Position numbers and translations under genes: made by a program. Under the pieces are notes generated by a model, which ran no database searches, was not told where the DNA came from, and saw nothing but the letters and a program-made list of their open reading frames with translations. A stretch of 49,588 bases of DNA from Mameliella sp. MMSF_3455 (GTDB lineage: Bacteria > Pseudomonadota > Alphaproteobacteria > Rhodobacterales > Rhodobacteraceae). How positions within the stretch are numbered: position 1 is the first letter of the stretch; every line of letters begins with the position of its first letter. Positions 6,718 through 48,282 of this stretch are shown here, one piece after another. The stretch is taken from assembly GCF_030733205.1 (NCBI RefSeq), contig NZ_JASHJL010000036.1:1-49588 (forward strand). The letters run 5' to 3'.

Positions 6718-14568
<7,851 letters not shown>

Positions 14569-34310: not shown

Positions 34311-35144
34311 TCAGGCAGCAACCCGCGACCAAAGATCCCTGACGATTTCTCGAATATTTAGCGCGTCCTCCCATCTGTCGGATAAATCGTCGCCGTCGGG
34401 GCCGGAGATGGCATAAGGTTTCGGCCCAAGTTCCACGGTGAAGGTCAGGCTGCCGCCGGGGGCACCCCGCGCCAGCCAGTCGCCGAAGCCCATTGCCCAC
34501 CACGCCGCGAACTGGTCGACCCAGGGTTTGTGATAGGGGAAGCCGATCTCGATCTGGATCTGTTCGGCGCTTGAGACGCGCCCGTGAAATCCCCGCGCAT
34601 GGCGCAGGATACGGGCGATCATCGCCTGATTCACCGGCGAGATCGGCATGGTCATTTCCTGACCGCAGACATAATGCGACAGGTCGGCCAGCAACGGCAG
34701 GTCGCCCAGCTTGTCGATCATCTCGCGCGTTGACCAAAGGTCGTTGGTCATCATGCCGCGGTGGGTCTCGACCAGCACCGGGACACCGTATTCCCTGGAC
34801 AGTTCTTGCCATCCTGCGAGGATCGGCAGGCTGGAGGCGACATCGTAGGGGCGCACGTCCGGCTGGATGGTCAGGTGATGGATCTTGTGCTCGGCGGCCA
34901 GTTCCAGCGCCGGGCGCAGGTCGTCGATGTCACGTGGAAAGGCCTGACCTTCGACGACAAAGCCCCGGTCGCGCGCCTGCCCGATCCATTTGTCGACATC
35001 GGCGCGGGTGTGGAAATGGGTGCAGATGCCATCGAACCCGGCATTTGCGATCATCTCGAACTTTTCTTCGGTGGACCATTCCATGCCATCAGACTGGTGC
35101 CGCTCCATGCCCCAGAGCGATTGCAGGATGTGAAGATCAGGCAT
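34311..35144 (-). CDS. Sugar phosphate isomerase/epimerase family TIM-barrel protein
   Basis: The 277-residue protein belongs to the AP-endonuclease-2/xylose-isomerase-like fold. Candidate metal and catalytic residues appear in VETHRGMMTND, LADLSHYVCGQEM and FHGRVSSAEQIQIE. The family covers IolE/IolI-type cyclitol enzymes and other sugar isomerases; the specific reaction is unknown. It is the last gene of the leftward operon headed by the membrane hydroxylase, 82 bp after the PanB-like gene. The family fits a role late in the same pathway. Confidence 0.85.
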   Translation of the reverse strand: MPDLHILQSLWGMERHQSDGMEWSTEEKFEMIANAGFDGICTHFHTRADVDKWIGQARDRGFVVEGQAFPRDIDDLRPALELAAEHKIHHLTIQPDVRPYDVASSLPILAGWQELSREYGVPVLVETHRGMMTNDLWSTREMIDKLGDLPLLADLSHYVCGQEMTMPISPVNQAMIARILRHARGFHGRVSSAEQIQIEIGFPYHKPWVDQFAAWWAMGFGDWLARGAPGGSLTFTVELGPKPYAISGPDGDDLSDRWEDALNIREIVRDLWSRVAA

Positions 35145-35226: not shown

Positions 35227-36045
35227 TCAGCCGTTCACCGTTTCCATGAAGGCGACGAAGTCTTCGTCCTTGATCGGGACGCTGTGCTCTGGTCCCGGGT
35301 AGCCACCGGCGTCCACGTCGGCCTTGAAATCCTTCATCGCTGCGACGCGTTCGGCCTGTAGCCGGGCCAGTTCCGGGGCGAAGTTGCGATAGACCTTGCC
35401 GTGGCGCGGCTTGTGGTTCTTGCCGTAGCCGCAGATATCCTCGGTAAAGAGGTATTGCGCGTCGGCGTATTTTCCCGCGCCCATGCCCAGCATGATGAGC
35501 GAGGAGTTCTCGGTCAGGAATTTCGCCACCCGGTCGGGGACGACCTCCAGCTCTGCCCCGAAAACGCCGATCTCCTCCAGCTTTTGCACGTGCCGCCAAA
35601 GCGCCAGTGCCTCATCCGCCGTCTTGCCCACCGCGCGCCAGCCGGTCCACGTGATGTAGGACGGAATCAGCCCGATATGGCCAACCACCGGGATGTGATT
35701 GTCACAGAGCACCTTCTGGATGTCGTATGACGCCGAACAGTAAACGCAGTCGCCGCCCAGCGCAGAATAATGAAAGGCCGCGCGCAAATAGTCCTCGGCG
35801 GTGGCAAGGGGACGCCCGTTGAACTGCCCCCAGCCGCCGTAAGGCAGGCCAACCTGCACAAAGCAGTCACCGGCGGCGGCGCGCATCTCGGCATCAAAGA
35901 ACCGGCCCTCGATCGACAGCATGTGAATGCCTGCCTCGGCGGCGGCGGCGGCTTCGTCCGGCGTGGTGACAAACAGCATCGAGATTTTCTCGCCGCGCCT
36001 TTTCATTGCGCGGATGTCTTCGACGTGGGGGCGGTTGTGGTACAT
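35227..36045 (-). CDS. PanB-like (ketopantoate hydroxymethyltransferase fold) protein with altered metal site
   Basis: The 272-residue protein aligns with PanB in VVGHIGLIPSY (residues 121-131), GKTADEALALWRHVQKLEEIG, ELEVVPDRVAKFL (Glu167 in the place of the catalytic Glu181 of E. coli PanB) and LGMGAGKYADAQ. However, the three Mg ligands of PanB are not in place: the VGDS motif (Asp45) reads SIEG at 44-47, the D-M-P-F motif (Asp84) reads GLPY at 67-70, and the K-L-E-G motif (Glu114) reads YCSA near 102-105. It is therefore unlikely to be the pantothenate enzyme. It has GAGGAGGAAC before its ATG and lies 20 bp after the ferredoxin reductase gene, inside a catabolic operon. Confidence 0.85.
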   Translation of the reverse strand: MYHNRPHVEDIRAMKRRGEKISMLFVTTPDEAAAAAEAGIHMLSIEGRFFDAEMRAAAGDCFVQVGLPYGGWGQFNGRPLATAEDYLRAAFHYSALGGDCVYCSASYDIQKVLCDNHIPVVGHIGLIPSYITWTGWRAVGKTADEALALWRHVQKLEEIGVFGAELEVVPDRVAKFLTENSSLIMLGMGAGKYADAQYLFTEDICGYGKNHKPRHGKVYRNFAPELARLQAERVAAMKDFKADVDAGGYPGPEHSVPIKDEDFVAFMETVNG

Positions 36046-36065: not shown

Positions 36066-37253
36066 TCAGGCGGCTTTCAACTGGCGTTTCAGGTTTTCGG
36101 CAGGGTCGGCCAGAACATGGGGATCGATCCGCGCGCCGCGTTCGATGAGCTTTTCGAAGATGCGGAGATCCTTGGCGATCCTGTTGCCCGGCCCGATCCC
36201 GGCGGCAGCAGAGAGGCGCCCGTCGGCGTCACACTGGAAGACGAGTGTCTTGTCATCGCCAGTTTCGCGGCAGCGGACGGGGCGGCCCATGTCGAACAGG
36301 CCCGCGACCTGCAGTGTCAGGTCGTATTGGTCAGACCAGAACCACGGCACCTTGGCATAGGCGTCCGAGCCGCCCAGCATCGCCGTGGCCACATGCGCGC
36401 CCTGATCCTGCGCTGCCTTCCAGCTTTCCAGCCGGATGCGCGTGCCCCGCCATTGGAAGTTGCAGCAATCTCCGGCGGCAAAGATATTCGGGTCAGAGGT
36501 GCGAAACTGCCCGTCCACGACGATGCCGTTGTCCACCGTGATCCCCGCCGCCTCGGCCAGCGCGGTCTCTGGCCGCGCGCCGACACCTGCGATGACCGCG
36601 TCGAAGTCGAGCGCGGTGCCATCGGCAAGCGTGATCCTGCGCGCATCGGCTGCCGCCACATCCGCGCCGGTCAGTAGGCGGGCGCCTTCGGCCCCGTGGC
36701 GATCTGCGACCCGCGCGGCGATCTCTTGTGGTACGGCCCGGCCCAGAACGCGCGGCGCGGCCTCGATCACCGTGACCTCGGCCCCGGCCTTGCGAGCGGT
36801 GGCGGCCAGTTCGAGACCGATGAAACCGCCGCCGATGATGCCGATGCGCGCACGCGGCCTCAGCTGGGCCTGAATGGCGGTGGCATCCCGGTCGCTGCGC
36901 AGCGTCAGGCAGCCCGCCATGCCGGGGAACAAGCGCGCCCGCGCGCCGGTCGCCAGAAGCAGGCTGTCATAGGTCAGGCAATCCCCATCCGCCAAGGTCA
37001 CGGAGCGGGCTGCCGGATCAATCCCGGACACCCGCGCACCCAACCGAAGCGTGATGCCCGCCTCGGCATAGGCTGACGCGGGCCTGATGGCCTTTGGTGC
37101 GGCCTGCGGGTTCTTTGACAGCGGCGGGCGTTCATAGGGCAGCGCGGCCTCTTCGCCGATCAGCGTGATGGTGCCGTCAAACCCCTGTCCCCGCAGCGCA
37201 AAGGCTGCGCGCACGCCGCTTTCGCCGGCGCCTATGATCAAGATTGCTGTCAT
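36066..37253 (-). CDS. FAD/NAD ferredoxin reductase (MocF-like)
   Basis: The 395-residue protein has an FAD-binding Rossmann motif (LIIGAGESGVRAAFAL), the NAD-binding motif (IGIIGGGFIGLELAATA), and a second FAD motif (NIFAAGDCCNFQW). The C-terminal domain (SDQYDLTLQVAGLF) is the reductase-C domain of oxygenase-coupled ferredoxin reductases. It should pass electrons from NAD(P)H to the Rieske ferredoxin encoded 43 bp upstream. In Sinorhizobium rhizopine catabolism the corresponding component is MocF. It is the third part of the oxygenase system in this operon. Confidence 0.88.
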   Translation of the reverse strand: MTAILIIGAGESGVRAAFALRGQGFDGTITLIGEEAALPYERPPLSKNPQAAPKAIRPASAYAEAGITLRLGARVSGIDPAARSVTLADGDCLTYDSLLLATGARARLFPGMAGCLTLRSDRDATAIQAQLRPRARIGIIGGGFIGLELAATARKAGAEVTVIEAAPRVLGRAVPQEIAARVADRHGAEGARLLTGADVAAADARRITLADGTALDFDAVIAGVGARPETALAEAAGITVDNGIVVDGQFRTSDPNIFAAGDCCNFQWRGTRIRLESWKAAQDQGAHVATAMLGGSDAYAKVPWFWSDQYDLTLQVAGLFDMGRPVRCRETGDDKTLVFQCDADGRLSAAAGIGPGNRIAKDLRIFEKLIERGARIDPHVLADPAENLKRQLKAA

Positions 37254-37296
37254 GGATCGGTTACCTTGTCAGGCGGCGCGCAGGCTGCGCGCGGGG

Positions 37297-37608
37297 TCAG
37301 ATTTCGACGAAGACGCGGCCGTTCTCGACCTTGGTAGGATAGGTGTGCAGGTTCTCGCAGGCGGGCGGGGTTTCGACCTCGCCGCTGGAGGCGTTGAAGA
37401 TCGAGGCGTGCTTGGGACATTCGATGGTGTTTTCCACTACCAGCCCGTCTTCAAGATGCACGTCCTCATGGGTGCAGAGGCCGTCGGTGCAGTAATAGTT
37501 GTCCTCGTGATCGCGGATGATAACGAAGGTGCGGCCGCCGTGATCGAAACGGATCACGTCTTCTTCGTCGATGTCGGTGGCGGCGCAGGCGTCGATCCAG
37601 TCGGCCAT
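37297..37608 (-). CDS. mocE: Rieske [2Fe-2S] ferredoxin, MocE family
   Basis: The 103-residue protein has a complete Rieske site: Cys45-x-His47 (GLCTHEDVHL) and Cys64-x-x-His67 (IECPKHASIF). Its N-terminus (MADWIDACAATDIDEEDVIRF) and ending (CENLHTYPTKVENGRVFVEI) match MocE-type ferredoxins, named from rhizopine catabolism. It should shuttle electrons from the reductase to the membrane oxygenase. It is 43 bp from the reductase gene and 18 bp after the MocA-like dehydrogenase gene. Confidence 0.93.
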   Translation of the reverse strand: MADWIDACAATDIDEEDVIRFDHGGRTFVIIRDHEDNYYCTDGLCTHEDVHLEDGLVVENTIECPKHASIFNASSGEVETPPACENLHTYPTKVENGRVFVEI

Positions 37609-37626
37609 GATGGTTTCTCCCTTTGT

Positions 37627-38655
37627 TCAGAGCGTGATAGAGCGGTTTTCCTCCGCGCTTTGCCGCGCGGCATCGAGGATTTGCAGCGTGCGCACGCCGG
37701 AGGCAGCGGTCACCGGCGGCGGCGTGCCATCGCGAACCGCGCGGGCGAAGGCGGCATAGTAGTCGTGATAGCGGCCCTGTTCCGACGGAACGTGGGCCGC
37801 GCCCACGGCGGTGCGCAGGGTGCCCCAGTGGCTTTCGGGCTCATAGCCCCAGGCGTCGGGGGCCTGAACGGGCCGAATGCCTGCAAAGATCGCCTGCGCC
37901 TGCACATCCGTCCCGTGCGAGACGTAGGATCCTGCATCGCCGTAGGCGCGCAACTCGCGCTGGTCGAAATGGTTCAGTTTGCTGGCCGAGATGTGGCTAT
38001 GCGGGCCGCCCTCATGCCGGAGCGTGATGGTGAAACTGGCGTCGGTGCGCCCCTCGGGCAGGTCGACATGGTCTAGCTGCGCGTCAACCGCCACGACCGG
38101 CCCCAAGAGCCAGACCATCTGGTCCACCAGATGTGAGCCGAGATCGCGCAGAAGTCCTCCGGTCGGCCCGTGTTCCAAGGTTGCCGGATCGTCGAAATCC
38201 ATCCGCGAATGCACGCGCCAGACGCGGCCCAGCCGACCGTCGGCGATCAGTTTTGCCAATGTCTGGATGTCGCTGTCGTAGCGGCGGTTCTGGTACACGC
38301 CCAGCACCACGCCCCGGGCGTTCGCCGCTTCGTCCAACCGCCGTGCGCCGTCGGCATTCGGGGCAAAAGGTTTGTCCGCGATCACATGCAGCCCGGCGTC
38401 GATCGCCTCCATCACCAGATCATGACGGGTCTGGGGCGGCGTGGTGATCGTGACCGCATCCACCTCGCCGCTGGCGATCATCTCGCCGAGGCTGGCATAG
38501 ACAGGCTGTTCCGGCAGATCCGACCGCACCTTTGCAACCGTGCCAGGCGCGCGCGCCACCACCCCGGCCAGAGCGCAGCCTTCGGCGGCCTCGATAAAGG
38601 GGGCGTGAAAGTGCTGGCCTCCGGTGCCGTATCCGACAACGCCAATTCTCAACAT
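37627..38655 (-). CDS. Gfo/Idh/MocA-family dehydrogenase
   Basis: The 342-residue protein has the N-terminal Rossmann motif IGVVGYGTGGQHFH, the cofactor/substrate loop VIADKPFAPN (the EKP motif with Asp in place of Glu), and the catalytic region GGLLRDLGSHLVDQMVWLLG with the conserved His. It should oxidise or reduce a cyclitol or sugar with NAD(P). It lies in the same operon as the hydroxylase, ferredoxin and reductase, where a MocA-like dehydrogenase also occurs in rhizopine gene sets. The start at 38655 (MLRIGVVG) fits the family; an earlier in-frame start would overlap the hydroxylase gene. Confidence 0.9.
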   Translation of the reverse strand: MLRIGVVGYGTGGQHFHAPFIEAAEGCALAGVVARAPGTVAKVRSDLPEQPVYASLGEMIASGEVDAVTITTPPQTRHDLVMEAIDAGLHVIADKPFAPNADGARRLDEAANARGVVLGVYQNRRYDSDIQTLAKLIADGRLGRVWRVHSRMDFDDPATLEHGPTGGLLRDLGSHLVDQMVWLLGPVVAVDAQLDHVDLPEGRTDASFTITLRHEGGPHSHISASKLNHFDQRELRAYGDAGSYVSHGTDVQAQAIFAGIRPVQAPDAWGYEPESHWGTLRTAVGAAHVPSEQGRYHDYYAAFARAVRDGTPPPVTAASGVRTLQILDAARQSAEENRSITL

Positions 38656-38693
38656 GTCGAGCCTGCTTTCTGTCTGAAATGTGCGATGGGTTT

Positions 38694-39719
38694 TCAGGCT
38701 GCCGGAGCACCGGCCTTCTTGGCGTTCATGCGCTCTTTCTTGGCGCGAAAGCGGGCCTTCATCGCCTCGTCCGCCTCTTTTGAGCCGTCGTGCCAATAGC
38801 CGAACCATTTATCCAGCGGCACGATGCCGTCGGCGCCATAGTTCACCTCGAAATACTTGTGGTGCAGGTAGTGGCCGTAGGCGTGGCTATCGAGCGCGGT
38901 TTCGTCCGTCAGTTCAAGCTTGTCGAAGCCGATATGCCCGTTGATCGCGCCGTAGCCGACGATATGGCTGTTGAACATCATCACGATCGGGTTCGACGGG
39001 ATGATGAAATGCCAGACGATCTCGGCGAAATAGAGCAGATGCTCGACCGGATGCATGGACAGCGAAGACCAGGGCGACGGGTTGATCGAGTTGTGGTGAA
39101 CCGAATGGATGTGTTTGTACAGAAACGGCGAATGGATCAGCCGATGAATGCAGAAGAAGTGGATCTCGTGGATCGCCGGCACGAGGAAGATCAGCAGCGT
39201 CAGCCACAGCCAGTTGTCCTGCCAATCCAGCCAGCCAAAGACATGGTAGCCGTTGGCGAAGGCCCAGAGCATCAGCACCTCGATCATCGTCCAGATCGGG
39301 ATGCCCACAAGGAACGAGCGCAGGAAGTTGTCGAGGTTCTGGCTCTGGAACCAGAAGATGTCAGACGGGTTTTCAGACGGGAACTTGTGGTTGAACTTGA
39401 ACCGTGTGCCCTGCTTGCGCCGCACGTAGTAAAAGAGCTCAATGGCGCCATACATCGCGAAGATGCCGACCATGTTCACAACCAGCAGCCACAGGGCCCA
39501 GCCCCAGGACAGCGTCTGCAGCGTTGCGACGTCGGGAATGACAAAGACCCAATAGAGCAGCGCTGTGGCCATGTGAAAGGCATTCCACGGCCAGATCAAC
39601 TCGAACAGGTAATGCCCAACCTTGTTGAATCGGCCCTCCCAGAAAGGGGCCACTTTCAGGGCCTCGTTCGGCGCCCAGTTGCCGCGCTTGTCGCGGGTTC
39701 CGTATAGTGTGTCGTCCAT
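38694..39719 (-). CDS. Membrane di-iron hydroxylase of the sterol desaturase/fatty acid hydroxylase superfamily
   Basis: The 341-residue protein has about five membrane helices and the full set of histidine boxes: HRLIH (192-196) preceded by H184 and H187, HSVHH (205-209), HPVEH (223-227) and HYLHH (283-287). These bind the di-iron centre that uses oxygen for C-H hydroxylation or desaturation. The C-terminus is Lys/Arg/Ala-rich. In rhizopine catabolism MocD is a membrane oxygenase of the related desaturase family; here the slot is taken by a member of the fatty acid hydroxylase branch. First gene of the leftward operon, divergent from a LacI-family regulator. Confidence 0.88.
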   Translation of the reverse strand: MDDTLYGTRDKRGNWAPNEALKVAPFWEGRFNKVGHYLFELIWPWNAFHMATALLYWVFVIPDVATLQTLSWGWALWLLVVNMVGIFAMYGAIELFYYVRRKQGTRFKFNHKFPSENPSDIFWFQSQNLDNFLRSFLVGIPIWTMIEVLMLWAFANGYHVFGWLDWQDNWLWLTLLIFLVPAIHEIHFFCIHRLIHSPFLYKHIHSVHHNSINPSPWSSLSMHPVEHLLYFAEIVWHFIIPSNPIVMMFNSHIVGYGAINGHIGFDKLELTDETALDSHAYGHYLHHKYFEVNYGADGIVPLDKWFGYWHDGSKEADEAMKARFRAKKERMNAKKAGAPAA

Positions 39720-39877
39720 GTTCTTCCCCACTCTTCGCCCCAAAGCGTGGCGCCGCATTAGACGGGCCGCTGTGAAAGGGTGAGCCTTGATCAGATAGAT
39801 CGGATGAATTTCCGGGGCGTGACCGACGCCCAAGGGATGCATACACCACCAATTGACAGCCTGTCGCAGAGCGTGTT

Positions 39878-39891
39878 GATTGATTTCAATC
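39878..39891. promoter_or_regulatory. Inverted repeat, candidate LacI-family operator
   Basis: GATTG-ATTT-CAATC, with the overlapping palindrome TGATTTCAATCA, lies in the 208-bp gap between the divergent hydroxylase and regulator genes, 37 bp before the regulator ATG. It is a reasonable site for autoregulation and control of the hydroxylase operon. No clear promoter hexamers were picked for either gene. Confidence 0.4.
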
Positions 39892-39927
39892 AGCGCAGCG
39901 GCGATGCGCAGGCAAAGCACTGAGACA

Positions 39928-40983
39928 ATGGCAAAAGAAGCTTCTGGCAAAGTCACGTTGCAGGATGTTGCCACCAAGGCAGGTGTCGGAAGCGCGACCG
40001 TGGACCGGGTGCTGAACGAACGCGGCAATGTCAGCGACTCGGTGCGCAAACGGGTGATCGAGGCGGCCCGGGAGCTTGGGCTGCGGCGCATTCTGCCATC
40101 TGCCTATCGTCGCACCGTTCGGATCAACTTCATCCTGTCGCGGACGGAGCGGCCGCTGCTGAAACGCATGGCCACGGAGGTCGGACGGCTCAGCCAGCGC
40201 TGCGAAGAGGGCCTTTACATTCAACGGACCTTGCTTGACCGGGAAGACCCCGAATCCGTCGCCAAGGCGATGCTGCGTGGGGCCTATGACGCGGTGGCTA
40301 TTTGCGCGCCCGATCACGCGTTCGTCCATCAGGCCATCGACACGCTGGCACGCCGCGATTGCCCCGTCGTGACATTGATTTCGGACGTTCCCGGCTCGGC
40401 CCGGCTTGCTTATGCCGGAACCGATCACGTCAAGGCCGGGCGCTCGGCGGCTTTTTTCCTCGCCCGGATGGCTCCACGCCTGGATGGGTTGGGAAAAGTT
40501 ATCGTGCTCTGTCACGACGAGGGATTTCAGGCCCATGCCGAACGCATTCGCGGCTTTGCCGAGCAATTGGAGGCCGACGACCTTGGCTTGAAGTTGGCGG
40601 AAATCGTCCGTGGCGGGGATGACCCCTTGTTGTCAGAGATAAAGTTGAAAGAGACGTTGCGCCGTCACCCGGAAACTGTCGGGATCTACAATGCCGGTGG
40701 CGCAAACCGGGGAGTGATCGCGGCGATAGCGGCCAACTTACTGCCCAGGCGACCGCTCTTTCTGGGCCATGAACTCACGAATTTCACTTGGCACTGCCTG
40801 CGGGACGGGCGGATGACCCTGGCAATCGATCAGAGCCCCGAATTGCAGGCGCAATACGCACTGGAAGTGGTGATGCACCACTATGGATTCGAAGGCGCCG
40901 TGCGCGCGCTACCGCCCTATGTGTCCGATGTTCCGATCGTTTTGTATGGGCCGCAGAACCTGCCGGATGTGCCGCCAAACTGA
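39928..40983 (+). CDS. LacI-family transcriptional regulator (first paralogue)
   Basis: The 351-residue protein has an N-terminal LacI helix-turn-helix (VTLQDVATKAGVGSATVDRVLNERGNVSD) and a periplasmic-binding-like effector domain, with GIYNAGGANRGVIAAIAAN and LFLGHELTNFTWHCLRDG near the C-terminal half. I chose ATG 39928; the frame opens at 39880, inside the inverted repeat, so the longer form is unlikely. It is divergent from the hydroxylase operon, which it probably controls, and convergent with a close paralogue 34 bp away. The ligand is likely a cyclitol or related sugar. Confidence 0.9.
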   Translation: MAKEASGKVTLQDVATKAGVGSATVDRVLNERGNVSDSVRKRVIEAARELGLRRILPSAYRRTVRINFILSRTERPLLKRMATEVGRLSQRCEEGLYIQRTLLDREDPESVAKAMLRGAYDAVAICAPDHAFVHQAIDTLARRDCPVVTLISDVPGSARLAYAGTDHVKAGRSAAFFLARMAPRLDGLGKVIVLCHDEGFQAHAERIRGFAEQLEADDLGLKLAEIVRGGDDPLLSEIKLKETLRRHPETVGIYNAGGANRGVIAAIAANLLPRRPLFLGHELTNFTWHCLRDGRMTLAIDQSPELQAQYALEVVMHHYGFEGAVRALPPYVSDVPIVLYGPQNLPDVPPN

Positions 40984-41017: not shown

Positions 41018-42046
41018 TCAGGGACCGCAATTGTACCGGGTGTGGATCGAAATCTGCGTCTCTGCGGGCTCCGAAATTTCGGTGCCGCCGACATGGCTGC
41101 GTAGCCACTCTGCCGCCGTTGTCACCTCGGCGACGAAGTCGTGCGAAATGACGTAGTCCATGACGCCGCTTTCCAGCAGCGCCCGGGTATAGGGCGTCAG
41201 TTCGTGGCCGACAAAGATCGTCTCATGAGTCTTTTCAAAGGCCTCCAACGCTTCGGCGACGCCACGGTTGGCCCCGGCAACATTGTAGATGGCCGCCGGA
41301 CAGCCATGTGTGTCGATATAGGCCGCAAGCTGTTCGCGTGTGGTTTCGGTGCTGTCGTCCGAGGTCACGCGCTCTTCGATCTTGAGGTAGGGGAATTCGC
41401 TACGCAGGACACGGCGGAAACCCATCTCGCGTTCCTGTTGGGATCGGAACGGCACGCTCATCATCAAGAGGATGTTGTTGCGCTTCTCCGGCAGGATCTG
41501 GCCAATCAACTGGGCTGCCACGCTGCCCGCCGCGTATTGGTTATTGCCGATATAGGCCGAGCGTCGCGACGAGGGCAGATCCGTTGTCAGGGTCACGACC
41601 GGACGGTCGCTGCCGACCAGTTTGCGCACCGCGCGGTTGATCGCGGGGTGTTCACGCGCAATGACGATCACCCCGTCCGCGTCAAAGCCTTCGTCCTCGA
41701 TCTTGCGGGCAAAGGGCATCGGATCCATCTGGTGGGTCGATACATAGTGACCATCGATCTGAATCCCGGGGAGGGTGCGATTGATCCGGTCCACCGCCGC
41801 TTCCATCAACCCGTTGAAGGACGCGCCTGAATCGCAATAAAGCTTTAGGTTCAGCAGGCGTTCAACAGCGCCACGTTCGGTAGCGAGTTTCTCAAAGGCA
41901 TTCTGGACCCGCTGCCGGGTCTTTTCGCTGACACCGGGGCGGTTGTTCAGAACCCGGTCCACCGTTGCAGATCCCACACCGGCAACCTTGGCGATTTCAC
42001 TGACTGTCGGCCCTCGCCAGGGCAGTTTTTTTCGCACGTCTTCCAA
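41018..42046 (-). CDS. LacI-family transcriptional regulator (second paralogue)
   Basis: The 342-residue protein has the helix-turn-helix TVSEIAKVAGVGSATVDRVLNNRPGVSEKT and the effector-domain motifs AIYNVAGANRGVAEALE and IFVGHELTPYTRALLESG, close to those of the first paralogue. The best start is a TTG at 42046, 5 nt after GGGAGGA; a GTG at 42085 has no such site. It is divergent from the second CUT2 transporter and so probably represses that operon, including the iol-type genes. The pair of regulators with shared motifs suggests chemically similar inducers. Confidence 0.88.
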   Translation of the reverse strand: MEDVRKKLPWRGPTVSEIAKVAGVGSATVDRVLNNRPGVSEKTRQRVQNAFEKLATERGAVERLLNLKLYCDSGASFNGLMEAAVDRINRTLPGIQIDGHYVSTHQMDPMPFARKIEDEGFDADGVIVIAREHPAINRAVRKLVGSDRPVVTLTTDLPSSRRSAYIGNNQYAAGSVAAQLIGQILPEKRNNILLMMSVPFRSQQEREMGFRRVLRSEFPYLKIEERVTSDDSTETTREQLAAYIDTHGCPAAIYNVAGANRGVAEALEAFEKTHETIFVGHELTPYTRALLESGVMDYVISHDFVAEVTTAAEWLRSHVGGTEISEPAETQISIHTRYNCGP

Positions 42047-42480
42047 ATTGTTCCTCCCTGGTCGTCGAGATGGAGCGGGCACCACTGCCTGTGGGTAACA
42101 TACACAATCCGGTTTGGTTGACCGTAGGCACCCGTGGCTTCGTCATGATGTTATTTACATCAGAAACACGCGAAAGCGGCAAATTTGACTGTTTTATTCG
42201 GTTTATCAAAGCGTTATTAACTTTCTGGTCGCCATATGATGGAAAACGCATCAAGAATTGGCGCGCAACTTCGTTCTCTCGAAATGACGATTCAGGTAGT
42301 TAACCTAGCGTCGGCACTCGGGAGGACACGCCGTCATCGTTCATTGCGCACCGGGGAGGTGTCGCTTCGAACGCCGTCCACACATGCAAATCGAATTGAC
42401 CGTGTCCGCGTCGCGTTGGCACGCCGGTCGACTGATGTCGGGCCGCAGAGGTGCGGCCGTATCCAAGGGAGGAAATCGAC
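42047..42480. promoter_or_regulatory. Divergent control region between the second LacI regulator and the ABC/iol operon
   Basis: This 434-bp gap contains an AT-rich stretch at about 42130-42305 with candidate operators: CAAATTTG (about 42180), GTTATTAAC (about 42213) and the GTTAAC palindrome within GGTAGTTAACC (about 42296). No open frame here is convincing. A stem-loop GGCCGCA-GAGG-TGCGGCC at 42441-42458 lies just before the ribosome site GGGAGGAA of the binding-protein gene, in what should be the leader RNA. Confidence 0.55.
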
Positions 42481-43440
42481 ATGAAACTCACCAAAACCAT
42501 CGCAGCTACGGCCATCGCCGCAGTGATGTCCACCGGCGCCTATGCGCAGGACATCGCCGTGATCGGCGGATCGGCCCAGGATGGCTTCTGGAACCTGGTC
42601 AAGAAGGGCGTTGATGACGCGACACTGGTGGTCGAGGCCAATGGCGGCACCGTCAACTACCTGCTGACCCAGAACTACGACAACTTCGGCCCCGACCTCG
42701 TGACCCTGATCGAACAGGCCGTTGCGCAGGGCGCAGACGGCATCGCGATCCCGAACTGGATCCCCGAATCCGAAACGCCGGCGCTGCAGGCTGCGGCGGA
42801 AAAAGGCGTCAAGATCATCTCTTACAACGCAGGTCAGGGCGAAATGGACAAGTACGACTCGCTCAACTACTTCGGCTCTGACGAGTATCTGGCCGGTGTC
42901 GCGGGCGGCAAGTACATGGCTGAAAAAGGCGCCAAGAAGATCATGTGCCACATCCAGATCCCCGGCGCGATCAACCTTGAAACCCGCTGCAAGGGTGTCG
43001 AGGACGGAGCCAAGGACGCCGGTGCTGAGGTCTACATCGTGCGTGTTCCCGCCAACCTCGACGGTGACATGATCGGCACTTCCGAAGCCATCAAGGCAGA
43101 GCTGATTGCAGATGGCGACATCGACGCGGTTATCAACCTGGCGGCCTGGGCTGCGGATGCCTCCGCTTCGGCGCTGGAGCAGCTGGGCAAGACCGACAGC
43201 GTCATGCTGGGCACCTTTGACCTGTCGGCTTCCGTCCTGAACCGCATCGAAGGCGGCACCCAGACCATGGCCATCGACCAGCAGCCCTACCTGCAAGGCT
43301 TCCTGGCGACCTCGATGCTGTTCTCCAACCTGAAGTTCGGCACCGAGCTGGCGACCAAGCCGGTCCTGACCGGCCCGGCCATCGTCGACTCTTCGAACGT
43401 CGCGACCGCCATTGCCGGCGTGAAGCTGGGCGCGCGCTAA
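42481..43440 (+). CDS. CUT2-type sugar/cyclitol ABC transporter, periplasmic binding protein
   Basis: The 319-residue protein has a Sec signal peptide (MKLTKTIAATAIAAVMSTGAYA, cleavage near AYA-QD) and a type I periplasmic-binding fold: IAVIGGSAQDGFWNLVKKGV, DGIAIPNWIPESE, KIISYNAG and VMLGTFDLSASVLNRI. The ATG at 42481 follows GGGAGGAAATCGAC. It heads an operon whose later genes look like inositol catabolism, so a cyclitol or its derivative is the likely cargo. Expression relative to the permease is probably raised by the hairpin after it. Confidence 0.93.
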   Translation: MKLTKTIAATAIAAVMSTGAYAQDIAVIGGSAQDGFWNLVKKGVDDATLVVEANGGTVNYLLTQNYDNFGPDLVTLIEQAVAQGADGIAIPNWIPESETPALQAAAEKGVKIISYNAGQGEMDKYDSLNYFGSDEYLAGVAGGKYMAEKGAKKIMCHIQIPGAINLETRCKGVEDGAKDAGAEVYIVRVPANLDGDMIGTSEAIKAELIADGDIDAVINLAAWAADASASALEQLGKTDSVMLGTFDLSASVLNRIEGGTQTMAIDQQPYLQGFLATSMLFSNLKFGTELATKPVLTGPAIVDSSNVATAIAGVKLGAR

Positions 43441-43458: not shown

Positions 43459-43483
43459 GACCCGGCCGGTCAATGGCCGGGTC
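43459..43483 (+). terminator. Intercistronic hairpin between binding protein and permease genes
   Basis: GACCCGGCC and GGCCGGGTC form a perfect 9-bp stem with a 7-nt loop, 18 bp after the binding-protein stop. No T-run follows, so it is more likely to protect the upstream mRNA or attenuate weakly. The first transporter operon has a stem-loop in the same place. Confidence 0.6.
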
Positions 43484-43538
43484 ACCCAAGCTCACCCGCG
43501 ACCGGGTTCGAGCCGCATTCCATCAGGAGCCTGCCCAA

Positions 43539-44594
43539 ATGACCGATACGTCTTCCACCACTGGTTCGGGGGAAACGCCAAAAGCCGAAGAAATGTCGGC
43601 GGGCTTTTCCTTCGGTGATTTTCTGCGCAGCCCGGCAGCAGGGGCTCTCATGGGCTTTGTCGTTGTCTTCTGTGTCTTCGCAATTTTCGGCTTCAGCCGC
43701 AATTTCCTGTCCATCCCCGGGGTGACCACCTGGGTGAACTTTGCCTCGCTGGTCGGAATCATTGCCATTCCCGTCGGCTTTCTGATGATCGCGGGCGAGC
43801 TCGACATTTCCACCGGCGCGGTGCTGCCCGCGGGCGCCATGACGGTGGCAATCGTGTCCGGCCACTATGACCTGCCGGTTCTCGTCGGCATTCTGGCGGC
43901 ACTGAGCGTCGGCGCGCTGGTCGGGTTCATCAACGGGTTCATCGTGACGCGGACCGAAGTGCCGTCTTTCATCGTGACTTTGGCCACGCTCTTTGCGGTT
44001 GCCGGTCTGACGCTGTACCTGTCGATCCTGTTCATCAACAACACCAACTCCTTCTACCATGCGCCGGACTGGGCCAAATCGCTCTTCGGCGGCAAGGTCT
44101 ACGGTTTCAACTCGTCGGTCTTCTGGTGGCTGGCGCTGGTGGCGGCGTTCTACTTCTTCCTGCACAAGTCGCCCAAGGGGTCCTGGGTCTTCGCTCTTGG
44201 CGGTGATCAGGAAAGCGCGCGAAACGCCGGTATCCCGGTGCGCAAGCTGAAGATCAGCCTGTTCATGCTGTGCTCGACCTGCGCGGCCTTCGCCGGGGCG
44301 CTTCAGGTGATCACGTTCAACTCGGCCACCAGCCAGGCGAACTTTGGCCTGATCTTCAACACCATCATCTCGGTCGTGGTCGGCGGTGTGCTGCTGACGG
44401 GCGGGTTTGGCACCGTGATGGGCATCGTCTTTGGTGTGCTGACCCTGTCCATCGTAACGCAGGCCATCGGCTTTACAGAGATCGACCGCAACCTGTCGTT
44501 CCTCATCATCGGTGTGATGCTTCTGATCGCGGTTCTGATGAATGACACCTTCCGCAATTTGGCGACCAGCTGGTCGACCTCGAAGAAGAAGTGA
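43539..44594 (+). CDS. CUT2-type ABC transporter, permease
   Basis: The 351-residue RbsC-type permease has about ten helices and family motifs IPVGFLMIAGELDISTGAVLPAG, EVPSFIVTLATLFAVAG, ESARNAGIPVRKLKISLF and GGVLLTGGFGTVMGIVFGV. The ATG at 43539 (MTDTSSTTGSG) has AGGAGC 9 nt upstream; an in-frame start at 43473 would begin inside the hairpin. It has a roughly 30-residue soluble N-terminus. It is 11 bp from the ATPase gene. Confidence 0.92.
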   Translation: MTDTSSTTGSGETPKAEEMSAGFSFGDFLRSPAAGALMGFVVVFCVFAIFGFSRNFLSIPGVTTWVNFASLVGIIAIPVGFLMIAGELDISTGAVLPAGAMTVAIVSGHYDLPVLVGILAALSVGALVGFINGFIVTRTEVPSFIVTLATLFAVAGLTLYLSILFINNTNSFYHAPDWAKSLFGGKVYGFNSSVFWWLALVAAFYFFLHKSPKGSWVFALGGDQESARNAGIPVRKLKISLFMLCSTCAAFAGALQVITFNSATSQANFGLIFNTIISVVVGGVLLTGGFGTVMGIVFGVLTLSIVTQAIGFTEIDRNLSFLIIGVMLLIAVLMNDTFRNLATSWSTSKKK

Positions 44595-44605
44595 GGAGAG
44601 AGACC

Positions 44606-45430
44606 ATGTCCGACAAGAAACCCGTCCTCGAACTCCGCAAGGTCGACAAGAGCTTTGGCCCGATCGACGTGCTCCACGAAATCAGCCTGAAGGTGGGCGA
44701 GGGCGAAGTGCTCTGCCTGCTGGGGGACAACGGCGCCGGCAAGTCGACCCTGATCAAGACCCTCGCCGGGGTGCACCAGCCGACGCGCGGCGAAATCCTG
44801 ATGGATGGCACGCCGACGTCGTTCTCCAGCCCGCGAGATGCGCAGGGCCGGGGGATCGCCACGGTGCACCAGTTTGGCGGGACCTATCCGCTGATGTCCG
44901 TCGGGCGCAACTTCTTCATGGGGATGGAACCGACCAAGGGCGTCGGTCCGTTCAAGGTCTTCGACCGCGCCAAGGCCAACCGGATCGCGGTGGAAGAGGT
45001 CCAGAAGATGGGCATCACCCGCATCACCGACGGCGACCGTCTGGTTGGTGGCCTGTCGGGTGGCGAGCGTCAGTCGCTGGCCATCGCCCGTGCGGTGTAT
45101 TTCGGCGCCCGCGTGCTGATCCTTGATGAGCCGACCGCCGCGCTGGGGGTCAAGCAGGCCGCCCACGTGCTGCGCATCGTGAACGAGGCCAAGAAGCGCG
45201 GTCTGGCCGTGATCTTCATCACCCACCAGGTGATGCACGCCATGGCCGTGGGCGATCACTTTGCCGTCCTGATCCGGGGCGCAATCGCCGCCGATTTCCG
45301 CAAGGGCGACAAGACCCGCGAAGAAATCGCCGACCTGATGGCAGGCGGGGAAAGCATGGCAGACCTCGAAGCCAATATCGAGGGCTACATGGAAACTCAC
45401 GACGGCCATCCGCCGCAGCCTGCGGCCTGA
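44606..45430 (+). CDS. CUT2-type ABC transporter, ATP-binding protein (single domain)
   Basis: The 274-residue protein has one nucleotide-binding domain: Walker A LLGDNGAGKSTLIKT, Q-loop VHQFGGTYPLMS, signature LSGGERQSLAIARA, Walker B VLILDEPTAALG and H-loop ITHQV. It is again the single-domain form, and its Walker A region is identical to that of the first transporter's ATPase, so the two are paralogues. The Gln in HQFGG replaces the usual YQD/FQD context. The C-terminus (ETHDGHPPQPAA) is variable. Confidence 0.93.
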   Translation: MSDKKPVLELRKVDKSFGPIDVLHEISLKVGEGEVLCLLGDNGAGKSTLIKTLAGVHQPTRGEILMDGTPTSFSSPRDAQGRGIATVHQFGGTYPLMSVGRNFFMGMEPTKGVGPFKVFDRAKANRIAVEEVQKMGITRITDGDRLVGGLSGGERQSLAIARAVYFGARVLILDEPTAALGVKQAAHVLRIVNEAKKRGLAVIFITHQVMHAMAVGDHFAVLIRGAIAADFRKGDKTREEIADLMAGGESMADLEANIEGYMETHDGHPPQPAA

Positions 45431-45525: not shown

Positions 45526-46551
45526 GTGACGATAAGACTTGCCGTTATCGGGGCCGGATTGATGGGCGCGGACCACGCGAAGATCGTGGCCCAGGATCTG
45601 CCCGGCGCGACGTTGCAGGTGATCTGCGATATGGACAGGGCCCGTGCCAAGAGCCTCGCGGACACCTTGGGCGCGCAGGATGTGGCCAATGATCCGAACG
45701 CCGTGATCAACCGCGCGGATGTGGATGCCGTGATCATTGCCAGCCCCGACTTCACCCATGCGCCCCTGTCCAAGGCCTGTATCGCTGCGGGCAAGAGCGT
45801 GCTTTGCGAAAAACCGCTGTCGCAGAAGCCCGCCGAATGTCTTGAGGTGATCGAGGCCGAGATGGCGGCAGGCGCGCGCCGGGTCATGCTGGGCTTCATG
45901 CGCCGCTATGACCGGGCCTATGCCGAGATGCGGCAGGCCCTGCAGGACGGCACGCTGGGCCGCCCCCTGATGATGCACAACTTTCACCGCAACGTGGAAA
46001 CGCCGGCGTCCGACTTTACCGGCGCGATGGCGATCACCAATTCCGCCCCGCATGAATTCGACGTGGTGCGCCATGTGTTGGGATGTGAATTCACCAGCGT
46101 CACCGCGATGCAGCCCAAACGCTCGGACGACAAGGTCGCGCCGGTGGTGATGGTTCTGGAAACCGATGGCGGTCAGCTGGTGACCATCGAGATCAACAAC
46201 AACGCCGACTATGGTTATGACGTACGCGCCGAACTGGTGGGTGAGACCGGGTCGATCGCGACGAACAACGTGGCCTACAGCCGAACCGATATGAAGCTGG
46301 CCTCGGCGACCCGCTACGACACCGACTGGCGCGGCCGTTATCACGACGCCTACGTACAGCAGAACCGCGCCTTCCAGCGCTTTGTCGAGACGGGCGAATT
46401 CCCCGAGATCGCGTCCGATTGCTGGGACGGCTACTGCGCCGCCGTGGTGGCCGAAACCGGTGCGAAGGCACTGGAAAGCGGCCAGAAGGCAAAGGTCGAG
46501 ATGATCGCCAGGCCGGGGTTCTATTCTACCAAACAAGGAAAAGCGGCATGA
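45526..46551 (+). CDS. Gfo/Idh/MocA-family dehydrogenase (inositol dehydrogenase-like)
   Basis: The 341-residue protein has the NAD(P) motif LAVIGAGLMGADHAKIV, the EKP motif LCEKPLSQKP and the catalytic-His region NSAPHEFDVVRHVLG. It likely oxidises a cyclitol or its derivative. The start is a GTG at 45526 with GGGAGGAGAT upstream. It overlaps the next gene by 4 bp. A third family member, IolG-like, follows at 48305; different members usually act on different stereo-isomers (myo, scyllo) or derivatives. Confidence 0.9.
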   Translation: MTIRLAVIGAGLMGADHAKIVAQDLPGATLQVICDMDRARAKSLADTLGAQDVANDPNAVINRADVDAVIIASPDFTHAPLSKACIAAGKSVLCEKPLSQKPAECLEVIEAEMAAGARRVMLGFMRRYDRAYAEMRQALQDGTLGRPLMMHNFHRNVETPASDFTGAMAITNSAPHEFDVVRHVLGCEFTSVTAMQPKRSDDKVAPVVMVLETDGGQLVTIEINNNADYGYDVRAELVGETGSIATNNVAYSRTDMKLASATRYDTDWRGRYHDAYVQQNRAFQRFVETGEFPEIASDCWDGYCAAVVAETGAKALESGQKAKVEMIARPGFYSTKQGKAA

Positions 46552-47507
46552 AACTCGGCTTTGTTTCCGACAGCCTCGGTGGCATGAGCCTGCAAGAGGT
46601 CCTGCAGAACGCGCAGCGCATGGGCGTTCAGGGCATCGAGGTGAACACATGCGGCTGGTCCACCGCGCCGCATTTCGACCTAAAGGCCATGCTGGGCGAT
46701 GCGCAGGCGCAAAAGGATTTCCGCGCCCGGTTCAAGGATCACGGGCTGGAGATCATCAGCCTGAACGCCAATGGCAATCCGCTGCACCCGACCGATCCAG
46801 TACAGGCAGAGGGTCTGCGCGACACCATCCGTGTCGCAGGTCAGATGGGCATCAAGACGGTCTGCACCATGTCCGGTCTGCCCGCTGGCTCGGCCTCGGA
46901 CACCATGCCCAATTGGGTGGTCTCCTCCTGGCCGCCGGAAACGCAGGACATCCTGAAATACCAGTGGGAAGAGAAGCTGATCCCCTTCTGGACAGAGATC
47001 GCGGCGCTGGCCCGCGACAATGGCGTCGAGCGCATCGCGCTCGAACTGCACGGCAACCAGTGTGTCTACAACGTGCCCTCCCTGTGGAAACTGCGCGACG
47101 CGGTCGGGCCCGTCATCGGGGCAAACCTCGACCCGTCGCATCTTTTCTGGATGGGTGCTGATCCGCTGGTGGCGGCAGAGGCCCTGGGCGAGGCGATCTA
47201 TCATGTGCACGCCAAGGACACGATGCTGAACGCGCCGGTGCAGGCGACGACCTCGCTCTTGGAAAACGGATCGTTGATGGACATCCCGGCCCGCAGTTGG
47301 TCCTACATAACGCTGGGTTTCGGCCACGGCGAGGAATGGTGGCGGCAGTTCTGCTACCGGCTGAAGATGGCCGGCTACGACGGCTGGCTGTCGATCGAAC
47401 ATGAGGATGTTTTGCTCAACTCTCTGGAAGGGTTGGAGAAATCCGTAACGCTGCTGCAAAACGTGATGCCTTCCGCCCCGGCGGACTACAAACCACAGGA
47501 TATCTGA
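46548..47507 (+). CDS. Sugar phosphate isomerase/epimerase (IolE/MocC-like TIM barrel)
   Basis: The 319-residue protein is in the xylose-isomerase-like TIM-barrel family. Metal-site motifs are IALELHGNQCVYN, ANLDPSHLFWMGAD, IYHVHAKDTML and WLSIEHEDVLLN. In inositol pathways this fold supplies IolE (dehydratase) or related MocC-like proteins. The ATG at 46548 overlaps the preceding gene by 4 bp; a much longer in-frame start upstream runs inside the dehydrogenase gene and is rejected. I cannot separate IolE-like from MocC-like activity by sequence alone. Confidence 0.85.
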   Translation: MKLGFVSDSLGGMSLQEVLQNAQRMGVQGIEVNTCGWSTAPHFDLKAMLGDAQAQKDFRARFKDHGLEIISLNANGNPLHPTDPVQAEGLRDTIRVAGQMGIKTVCTMSGLPAGSASDTMPNWVVSSWPPETQDILKYQWEEKLIPFWTEIAALARDNGVERIALELHGNQCVYNVPSLWKLRDAVGPVIGANLDPSHLFWMGADPLVAAEALGEAIYHVHAKDTMLNAPVQATTSLLENGSLMDIPARSWSYITLGFGHGEEWWRQFCYRLKMAGYDGWLSIEHEDVLLNSLEGLEKSVTLLQNVMPSAPADYKPQDI

Positions 47508-47508
47508 C

Positions 47509-48282
47509 ATGGCTTTTCAACTCGCGGCCTGCGCCGAGATGCTCTGGGCCGACAAACCGATCCACTGGCGCGCCGCGCGCCTCAAGGAGATGGGCCTGGG
47601 CGTCGGCCTCTGGAACTGGCCGGAATGGGATCTGGACGCGCTGGAGAAAACTGGTGCCACCTTCACCATCATGAACGGCTACCTGCAGGGACGGCTGACC
47701 GATGCGGCAGGCGCGGACATGCTGCTGAAATCGGCGCGGGAAACCGCGCAGGTGGGCAAGCGGCTGGGCGTGCATCGGCTGAACCTGCACGGCACCGGCC
47801 TTGGCGACGGCGGCATCCCGATCCCGCAGCACGGCACCTTTGCGCCCGGCATGGAACTGCGCGCGCGCGATACCCTGCACCGGATCTGCGACATGGCAGA
47901 GGAAGAGGGCGTGACCTTCACGCTGGAAAACCTCAACCCGCTGGATCACCCGGGCTGTCCCTTCGGCTCCACCGAGGCGGTGCTGTCGCTGGTCTCTGCC
48001 GTCAACCGCCCGCAGTTGCGCATCAACCTTGACCTCTACCACACCCAGATCGGCGAGGGCGACCTTGTCCGTTGGTGTCAGGCTTGCCTGCCATGGATCG
48101 GCGAGGTGCAGGTGGCTGACAATCCGGGCCGCTGCGAACCGGGCACCGGTGAAATCAACTATCCGGGCATCGCCCGCGCGCTGGCCGACATGGGCTATGA
48201 CGGCCCTGTCGGGATGGAAGCCAATGCCAAGGGCGACTCTGACGCGGCTGTCGAAGCCTTCCGCGCTGCCTTTACCCTTTGA
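47509..48282 (+). CDS. Hydroxypyruvate isomerase-like TIM-barrel protein
   Basis: The 257-residue protein begins MAFQLAACAEMLWADKPIHW. The motifs FTLENLNPLDHPGCPFG, INLDLYHTQIGEGD and PGRCEPGTGEINY are close to those of the hydroxypyruvate isomerase (Hyi/OtnI) family, with the glutamate in GMEANAKGD. The reaction in this operon is probably a keto-aldose-type isomerisation of a cyclitol breakdown product. It starts 1 bp after the previous stop, so the two are coupled. Alternative: an IolI-like inosose isomerase. Confidence 0.85.
   Translation: MAFQLAACAEMLWADKPIHWRAARLKEMGLGVGLWNWPEWDLDALEKTGATFTIMNGYLQGRLTDAAGADMLLKSARETAQVGKRLGVHRLNLHGTGLGDGGIPIPQHGTFAPGMELRARDTLHRICDMAEEEGVTFTLENLNPLDHPGCPFGSTEAVLSLVSAVNRPQLRINLDLYHTQIGEGDLVRWCQACLPWIGEVQVADNPGRCEPGTGEINYPGIARALADMGYDGPVGMEANAKGDSDAAVEAFRAAFTL

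Follow-up and report, generated by a model that had tools for sequence, protein, structure and literature searches.

What is oxidised by a membrane hydroxylase of the fatty acid hydroxylase/sterol desaturase superfamily that is encoded together with a MocE-type Rieske ferredoxin, a ferredoxin reductase and a MocA-like dehydrogenase? The question is raised by a four-gene set (36066..39719; genes HYD, GFO1, MOCE and FRED) of Mameliella sp. MMSF_3455, located on contig NZ_JASHJL010000036.1, which was analysed in its complete length of 49588 bases (the window; host genome, 5.7 Mb). An earlier note, made from the sequence alone, had interpreted these genes as a MocDEF-like oxygenase, from a different branch, for a cyclitol or similar polyol in marine-type bacteria. 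The analysis carried out here points, with a probability of about two in three, to a pathway, probably under LacI control, that would take up an O-methyl-inositol, demethylate it oxidatively and feed inositol catabolism, inositols being cyclic sugar alcohols found in plants and algae. The four genes make up half of a larger unit, in which the minus strand runs on into a gene encoding a PanB-like protein (PANB-like) and then into TIM1, and these two genes and the facing transporter/inositol operon (39.9-49.3 kb) form one unit with them, so that the limits first given were too narrow. Most of the evidence comes from PANB-like and from the transporter/inositol operon, both missed by the earlier note, and the PanB-like companion is the novel element of the cluster. 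The gene layout is given in Table 1, and the loci compared are designated by L numbers.

A scan with HYD of one genome per species yielded 112 relatives, of which the best 80 were kept. HYD keeps its neighbours across Rhodobacterales and rhizobia, and the conservation of this neighbourhood across the 80 loci is more than chance. In 78 of the 80 loci, HYD has a LacI gene no further than 3.5 kb away. Downstream genes were counted in the 65 of these loci with at least 8 kb of downstream sequence, and SBP and the ATPase were each found in 62, the permease in 61, MocE in 58, the PanB-like gene in 52, TIM3 in 50, GFO3 in 29, GFO2 in 22, TIM2 in 19, the reductase in 10, GFO1 in 4 and TIM1 in 1. The conserved unit is composed of the hydroxylase, MocE, the PanB-like protein, TIM3, the transporter and LacI, often with an inositol-type dehydrogenase in addition. 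The expectation of a conserved four-gene neighbourhood in Rhodobacterales has therefore been upheld for the neighbourhood and not for the exact foursome, as judged by the counts for GFO1 and the reductase; among the best 80 loci, the exact four-gene order is shared only by Marinovum algicola (L011). Confinement to marine-type bacteria did not hold either, as 29 of the 80 loci, counted by record title, are from Hyphomicrobiales, mainly rhizobia.

The link to inositol catabolism was analysed through a census of iolD (TIGR04377 above cut-off) in 198 family genomes, one per genus, 101 of which carry this gene. The test for co-occurrence with iol genes suggested in the earlier note gave a positive result: iolD is present in 17 of the 18 genomes with a close hydroxylase (E <=1e-100) and in 84 of the 180 others (Fisher p 5e-5), the sole close-hydroxylase genome without it being 71% complete. 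With all hydroxylase homologues to E 1e-40 the counts were 48/68 versus 53/130 (p 5e-5), with the weaker homologues alone 31/50 versus 70/148 (p 0.05), and with PanB-like genes of at least 270 bits 29/38 versus 72/160 (p 4e-4). Furthermore, iolD lies 3-18 kb away on the same contig for 10 of 74 PanB-like genes (limit 20 kb), against a rough expectation of about 1, estimated by hand. These ten loci include HYD in L154 and L166 and a MocD-type oxygenase in L158, L159, L168, L171 and L172, with neither in view in L162, L196 and L214. In L166, where HYD and MocD are found in one cluster, the run goes on into an iolC-type kinase/aldolase gene above cut-off and iolD, and the MocD-type cluster of L172 also runs into iolD; in L227, of HYD type, genes of these two sizes come next. 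The genome that contains the window has two iolD genes, both on other contigs.

The facing operon itself encodes inositol-type proteins. GFO3 passed TIGR04380, the NCBI equivalog family of inositol 2-dehydrogenase, with 408.2 bits (cut-off 355), and its best match in the Protein Data Bank (PDB) was the inositol 2-dehydrogenase 4hkt (E 2.5e-95). It is thus like IolG in family and unlike it in setting, as the GFO3 gene is placed inside a transporter operon that faces the oxygenase and the host iolD genes are elsewhere. GFO2 reached 264 bits on NF052679 (cut-off 540) and 214.8 bits on TIGR04380, passing neither, and its PDB matches were 3ec7 and also inositol/chiro-inositol dehydrogenases such as 3mz0. 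The best curated match of SBP was the rhizopine-binding protein (156 bits, below the cut-off of 420), and its best PDB match was 4ru1, whose ligand is myo-inositol. The conserved neighbourhood, the iolD co-occurrence and the GFO3 score above the IolG cut-off all support the proposal of a MocDEF-like oxygenase of another branch that acts on a cyclitol.

The type of reaction is suggested by one-carbon (C1) genes. In a search of plasmids for MocE, in which PanB was disregarded, four of the 60 listed matches were opened; all of them carried MocD, an oxygenase of desaturase type, and each had a PanB-like gene downstream of MocE or the reductase. One of these loci (L106) matches a moc locus in gene content and continues from the PanB-like gene into purU, and another, on an Agrobacterium plasmid (L107), continues into purU and folD. 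Eight further plasmid loci, picked by their PanB-like gene, showed the same arrangement, seven being of MocD type and one of HYD type (L254). Of the 11 plasmid loci of MocD type, four encode PurU after the PanB-like protein (L106, L107, L248 and L255, the last a near-copy of L106), and FolD is encoded in L107, with a weaker match in L106 and L255. Among the 61 HYD loci with long flanks, PurU was found in eight (six full length, one fragment and one in pieces, at a contig edge and on the opposite side) and FolD in three; in some rhizobia the two genes are part of the cluster. FolD and PurU together convert methylene-tetrahydrofolate to formate, and therefore their linkage suggests formaldehyde disposal; a hydroxylase merely adding a ring hydroxyl would have no need of them. 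Comparison of HYD with MocD of L106 by blastp gave nothing significant (best E 3), and the occurrence of FolD/PurU with two sequence-unrelated oxygenase families that share MocE and a PanB-like protein is the main argument for demethylation. Each of the 11 opened MocD-MocE plasmid loci (L105, L106, L107, L108, L248-L253 and L255) contains a PanB-like gene, labelled as a pantothenate enzyme wherever it was annotated, and the portions available of the moc papers do not mention it.

A profile built from 12 PanB-like proteins was searched against 385 class and 198 family genomes, and 94 loci were read, excluding places below about 165 bits, two contig-end fragments (168.7 and 153 bits), one second copy in a fetched locus and the window itself; these loci overlap with the 80 HYD loci (e.g. 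L040/L157 and L037/L155), and the two sets are not independent. Within 6 kb and on the same strand as the PanB-like gene, a di-iron oxygenase was found in 64 of the 94 loci, MocE in 53, PurU in two and FolD in one. At up to 1.5 kb on either strand, a di-iron oxygenase accompanies 56 of the 94 PanB-like genes versus none of 14 canonical panB genes, nine of which were checked to be above the PanB cut-off and five assigned by low score alone. The oxygenase link persists in PanB-like members that are about 28-37% identical to that of the window and in genomes of 1.4 Mb (L216-L225, L229-L231). In a 1.6 Mb genome (L233), MocD, reductase, MocE, PanB-like protein, a second MocD and a hydroxylase are encoded in one run that adjoins a ribose-type transporter. 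A scan of 20 neighbour genes chosen from 190 listed revealed diverged PanB-like members adjoining Rieske ring-hydroxylating oxygenases (L223, L241), GCV_T (L218) and MTTB (L209), all families that include demethylases; other scanned neighbours, e.g. PALP, UxuA and DUF1800, were unrelated.

An ordinary pantothenate enzyme was considered for the PanB-like protein and rejected. PANB-like reached 82 bits on TIGR00222, below its cut-off of 207.55, and a canonical panB (302.8 bits) is found separately in the host genome, adjoining panC. None of the 94 PanB-like loci has panC among its called genes, and panC adjoins 4 of the 14 canonical panB genes. The PF02548 fold is retained: the PANB-like model (pLDDT 87) gave 3vav as the best Foldseek match (E 1.1e-17, TM 0.69), with PanB structures ranking first. 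In a comparison of the window protein and 92 of the 94 loci (L170 and L208 absent) with five of the 14 canonical proteins, His136 and Glu181 were kept in 93/93 PanB-like proteins, whereas Lys112 and Glu114 were changed in 93/93 and Asp84 in 91/93; the latter three residues were kept in 5/5 canonical proteins. The position of Asp45 falls in a poorly aligned stretch, with Asp in 15/93 PanB-like proteins. These positions follow Escherichia coli PanB numbering, in which Asp84, Lys112 and Glu114 lie around the metal. The aldolase PanB requires a metal and uses methylene-tetrahydrofolate (PMC4814558), and aldolase activity with free formaldehyde has been described for it (PMC7610986). The altered protein could retain the folate/formaldehyde half-reaction. 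It is encoded next to oxygenases of both families, also in rhizopine moc operons, and is probably the formaldehyde/tetrahydrofolate partner of the oxygenase. A broader proposal is tentative and, in our judgement, somewhat more doubtful than not: the PanB-like proteins might constitute a new enzyme class of demethylase C1 partners that load oxygenase-derived hydroxymethyl groups or formaldehyde on tetrahydrofolate and serve MocDEF, the PF04116 branch and other alphaproteobacterial demethylases, as the tetrahydrofolate counterpart of the formaldehyde-activating enzyme.

In the proposed pathway, the ABC transporter would bring in an O-methylated inositol (pinitol, ononitol, bornesitol, sequoyitol or similar). 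NAD(P)H would supply electrons, by way of FRED and then the MocE ferredoxin, to HYD, a putative O-demethylating oxygenase that would hydroxylate the O-CH3 group, and the hemiacetal would collapse to inositol and formaldehyde. The PanB-like protein would hand the formaldehyde, or the hydroxymethyl group itself, to tetrahydrofolate, and the C1 unit would exit as formate via FolD and PurU. The freed inositol would be oxidised by GFO3, GFO2 and GFO1, and the TIM-barrel proteins would convert it to the correct isomer for entry into the iol pathway. We infer the demethylation step from the purU/folD and PanB-like linkage and by analogy with MocDEF. TIM1 is proposed as a cyclitol isomerase/epimerase, and a homologue 52-53% identical to it closes a HYD-MocE-SBP-reductase run on three rhizobial plasmids.

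Pinitol and ononitol are met by rhizobia in legumes, in which O-methyl-inositols are widespread and build up in nodules (PMC8730688). In Rhizobium mesoamericanum exposed to Mimosa root exudate, of which pinitol is the component at the highest concentration, mocDEF homologues, a mocB-type transporter, iol genes and idhA were up-regulated, which its authors related to possible rhizopine use (PMC5789663); as an alternative reading, this induction could reflect pinitol demethylation.

The individual proteins of the four-gene set were as the earlier note had described them, with all genes on the minus strand. HYD matched PF04116 with 57.4 bits (cut-off 31) and no other Pfam family, MOCE matched TIGR02377 with 151.5 bits (cut-off 136.15), and FRED showed Pyr_redox_2 and Reductase_C domains. 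The histidine boxes of HYD were also correctly placed at 192-196 (H192/H196), 205-209 (H205/H208/H209) and 283-287 (H283/H286/H287), and their histidines are kept in 26/26 homologues, hand-chosen from 91 extracted hydroxylases plus 6 diverged ones, and in 37/37 of a second alignment. The AlphaFold model of HYD (pLDDT 77) is helical for the most part; the fold search gave 13 hits with a best E of only 3.6, so that no PDB match was obtained by fold, nor was one obtained by sequence. The Rieske motif of MOCE is C45-x-H47, with a second pair C-x2-H read by eye. FRED is 50-52% identical to the reductase of the MocD-type plasmid loci, and GFO1 reached 108.7 bits on TIGR04380, below 355. Members of the fatty acid hydroxylase superfamily include CrtZ, OlsE and alkylglycerol monooxygenase, which splits an ether following hydroxylation. 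HYD is like them a histidine-box di-iron membrane enzyme, and differs from them in its sugar-type neighbourhood and in lacking a PDB sequence match.

Several results weigh against the O-demethylation pathway. PurU is absent from the fetched stretch of 53 of the 61 HYD loci and from the window. GFO3 is present in just 29 and FRED in 10 of the 65 loci, 13 of which miss the PanB-like gene, and on rhizobial plasmids a clade of 56-58% HYD identity has no PanB-like gene (L091, L093, L094, L109, L110). This clade keeps LacI and the hydroxylase, usually MocE and sometimes SBP, the reductase or a TIM1-like gene: L091, L094, L109 and L110 have MocE, some with reductase and TIM barrel, and L093 is without any of these, the homologue of Sinorhizobium meliloti 1021 pSymA (L091, 57%) being a bare LacI-HYD-MocE trio in a stretch devoid of annotation. 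For 30 of the 94 PanB-like genes, the same strand shows no di-iron oxygenase up to 6 kb away, some of these loci ending at contig edges or holding the oxygenase further away, and one PanB-like group scoring near 240 bits (L236-L245) lacks such neighbours, L241 having a Rieske oxygenase instead. No iolD excess was found with PanB-like genes of 165-250 bits (6/11, p 0.53), and the iolD tests took one genome per genus without a tree, with the 'close' and bit-group cut-offs chosen post hoc. Because HYD is found in just two of the ten iolD-near loci, this proximity supports the PanB-like/Moc module more than HYD. Finally, a ring carbon could be the site of hydroxylation instead, and no enzyme assay, substrate or mutant was found for the cluster.

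Among the other explanations, the one that survives best, unlikely as it is, is that the compound demethylated is some other methylated sugar, polyol or osmolyte and that the inositol genes reflect broad polyol use. The ribose-type transporter and the adjoining xylose-dehydrogenase-like short-chain dehydrogenase (SDR) fit this explanation, and the diverged PanB-like genes beside GCV_T, MTTB and Rieske oxygenases suggest that the module may serve several compounds, whereas an inositol is favoured by the association with iolD and by a dehydrogenase that exceeds the cut-off for inositol 2-dehydrogenase. The SDR gene (32871-33626), on the far side of the operon, is related to D-xylose 1-dehydrogenase (312 bits, cut-off 400) and is not recurrent with the cluster.

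Less probable again would be a C-methyl cyclitol of algae, of the laminitol or mytilitol type, as the substrate: HYD would form C-CH2OH, a Gfo enzyme the adjacent ketone, and the PanB-like protein would release formaldehyde on tetrahydrofolate by a retro-aldol reaction. This would be the most direct use of the chemistry of PanB as a metal-requiring aldolase (PMC4814558), FolD/PurU would also receive the formaldehyde, and Gfo enzymes are present in the cluster. However, the PanB-like family is altered at residues that PanB uses around the metal. In addition, PanB-like genes are also found in loci with rhizopine moc gene content, rhizopine being an O-methyl compound (PMC6668481), and the cyclitols available to rhizobia in legumes include pinitol and ononitol (PMC8730688).

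The cluster would act like MocDEF, yet it is no Moc system, because its oxygenase, its regulator and its binding-protein score fail membership: MOCE belongs to the MocE family, and neither MocD nor MocR nor a score above the rhizopine-binding-protein cut-off was found in the window. MocDEF of the rhizopine moc cluster (mocCABRDEF) of Sinorhizobium and Rhizobium demethylates 3-O-methyl-scyllo-inosamine (3-O-MSI), and a link of this cluster to inositol catabolism was reportedly described by Bahar in 1998. Both systems combine a membrane oxygenase, a MocE Rieske ferredoxin and a MocF reductase with Gfo/Idh and TIM-barrel proteins and a ribose-type binding protein that feed inositol catabolism, and a PanB-like gene also follows the reductase in both moc-like loci that were opened (L106, L255). 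The window differs in having a PF04116 oxygenase instead of the desaturase-type MocD and LacI instead of MocR, and it adds transporter genes, a further inositol dehydrogenase and TIM barrels. A LacI gene divergent from a mocD operon beside a TIM barrel (FixV/Msi119 homologues) has been described in several rhizobia, with an inositol derivative proposed as inducer (PMC3538637). These loci share with the window the divergent LacI and the adjoining TIM barrel, and differ from it in their MocD-type oxygenase; the terms panB, ketopantoate and hydroxymethyltransferase are all absent from the main text of that paper.

A true rhizopine (3-O-MSI) pathway is very improbable for the window, even with a MocE above cut-off, a MocF-like reductase and a binding protein similar to that of rhizopine. 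LacI replaces MocR, and a MocR-like gene was found in 2 of the 80 HYD loci (36-37% identity); no MocB-type protein was matched in HYD loci at the limit used, and the recurrent genes include no aminotransferase. The oxygenase of the window is not MocD, although 5 of the 80 HYD loci (L012, L017, L027, L040, L049) add a MocD-type gene, 59-69% identical to that of L106, which suggests that the two oxygenase families can work side by side. Moreover, rhizopines are rare in nature (PMC6668481), and many hosts are marine Rhodobacterales. Least credible of all is a lipid, sterol or carotenoid hydroxylase, favoured by the Pfam name and by the record annotation 'lipid metabolic process' and set aside on the recurrent neighbours of HYD (sugar-type transporter, LacI, MocE and inositol-type genes), among which the lipid or carotenoid genes that the earlier note had named as contrary evidence were not seen, the non-recurrent neighbours being left unclassified.

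With respect to regulation, a palindrome (TTGATTGATTTCAATCAG) between HYD and LACI1, with a chance expectation of 0 in the window, is kept in Marinovum algicola (L011). Among 255 loci, its 12-base core was found elsewhere only in L011, in L159, where its promoter position is not established, and in two copies of the window's own stretch, a recurrence so sparse that co-regulation of the two operons is not proved by the palindrome. The likely start of LACI1, judged by eye, is the ATG at 39928.

Table 1. Features of the oxygenase and transporter/inositol operons in the window
Feature	Description	Position	Strand	Basis
TIM1	Xylose-isomerase-like TIM barrel	34311..35144	-	PF01261, 24.8 bits, below its cut-off
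PANB-like	Ketopantoate hydroxymethyltransferase fold, three canonical active-site residues changed	35227..36045	-	PF02548
FRED	NAD(P)H:ferredoxin reductase, HcaD/MocF-like, FAD	36066..37253	-	Pyr_redox_2 + Reductase_C
MOCE	MocE-family Rieske [2Fe-2S] ferredoxin, electron donor	37297..37608	-	TIGR02377
GFO1	Gfo/Idh/MocA oxidoreductase, YdgJ-like	37627..38655	-	Passes no curated cut-off
HYD	Membrane di-iron hydroxylase, fatty acid hydroxylase/sterol desaturase superfamily	38694..39719	-	PF04116
Palindrome	Candidate LacI-family operator, TTGATTGATTTCAATCAG, between HYD and LACI1	39876..39893		Conserved in Marinovum algicola (L011)
LACI1	LacI-family regulator, divergent from HYD	39880..40983	+	PF00356 + PF13407
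LACI2	Second LacI-family regulator, divergent from transporter operon	41018..42085	-	Pfam
SBP	Periplasmic binding protein	42451..43440	+	Best curated match, rhizopine-binding protein
PERM	Ribose/arabinose-type ABC permease	43473..44594	+	Curated-family match
ATPB	ABC ATPase, partner of SBP/PERM transporter	44591..45430	+	Domain match
GFO2	Inositol/chiro-inositol dehydrogenase-like Gfo/Idh/MocA protein	45526..46551	+	NF052679 and TIGR04380 scores; PDB
TIM2	Xylose-isomerase-like TIM barrel, weakly IolE-like	46548..47507	+	PF01261; TIGR04379, 30.8 bits
TIM3	Hydroxypyruvate/2-oxotetronate isomerase-like TIM barrel	47509..48282	+	Downstream of HYD in 50 of 65 loci
GFO3	Inositol 2-dehydrogenase (IolG)	48305..49297	+	TIGR04380 above cut-off

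Other arrangements of the cluster were also observed. The genome that contains the window has a second, decayed copy (L006, about 8131-11244), in which the hydroxylase homology is spread over two frames, one stretch having internal stops, and the first Rieske His of the MocE homologue is replaced by Tyr (C-T-Y). This copy also has GFO2- and TIM3-like genes and adjoins, as judged by eye, phenylacetate (paa)-like genes. In Mameliella sp. CS4 (L017), the hydroxylase cluster contains a gene of MocD size and adjoins genes of the same sizes. On the Bradyrhizobium plasmid of L254 (5788-10334), a PanB-like protein, a sterol-desaturase-type hydroxylase, a Rieske protein, a sugar isomerase and a reductase are encoded in one run, a minimal version of the operon in the window. 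In small alphaproteobacterial genomes (1.4-1.6 Mb; L229, L230, L231, L233), MocD-type genes are found beside PanB-like genes, and in L229 a Rieske oxygenase gene and a glutamine-synthetase-family gene are located nearby on the opposite strand.

In the open-licence literature, no paper was recognised as covering the combination of a PF04116 hydroxylase, MocE and a PanB-like gene, or the PanB-like gene in moc operons. To our knowledge, no route for the aerobic demethylation of O-methyl-inositols has been described except the rhizopine MocDEF system. The cluster offers a testable route for this demethylation, with its transporter, regulators and product pathway, in culturable marine and soil bacteria. 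The PanB-like gene, which bears a vitamin-enzyme label in the annotated records opened, seems often to accompany these oxygenases. The equilibrium between formaldehyde and tetrahydrofolate is spontaneous (PMC4814558), and if the proposed role is true, this spontaneous reaction would gain an enzyme in the PanB-like protein, and many annotations would be corrected.

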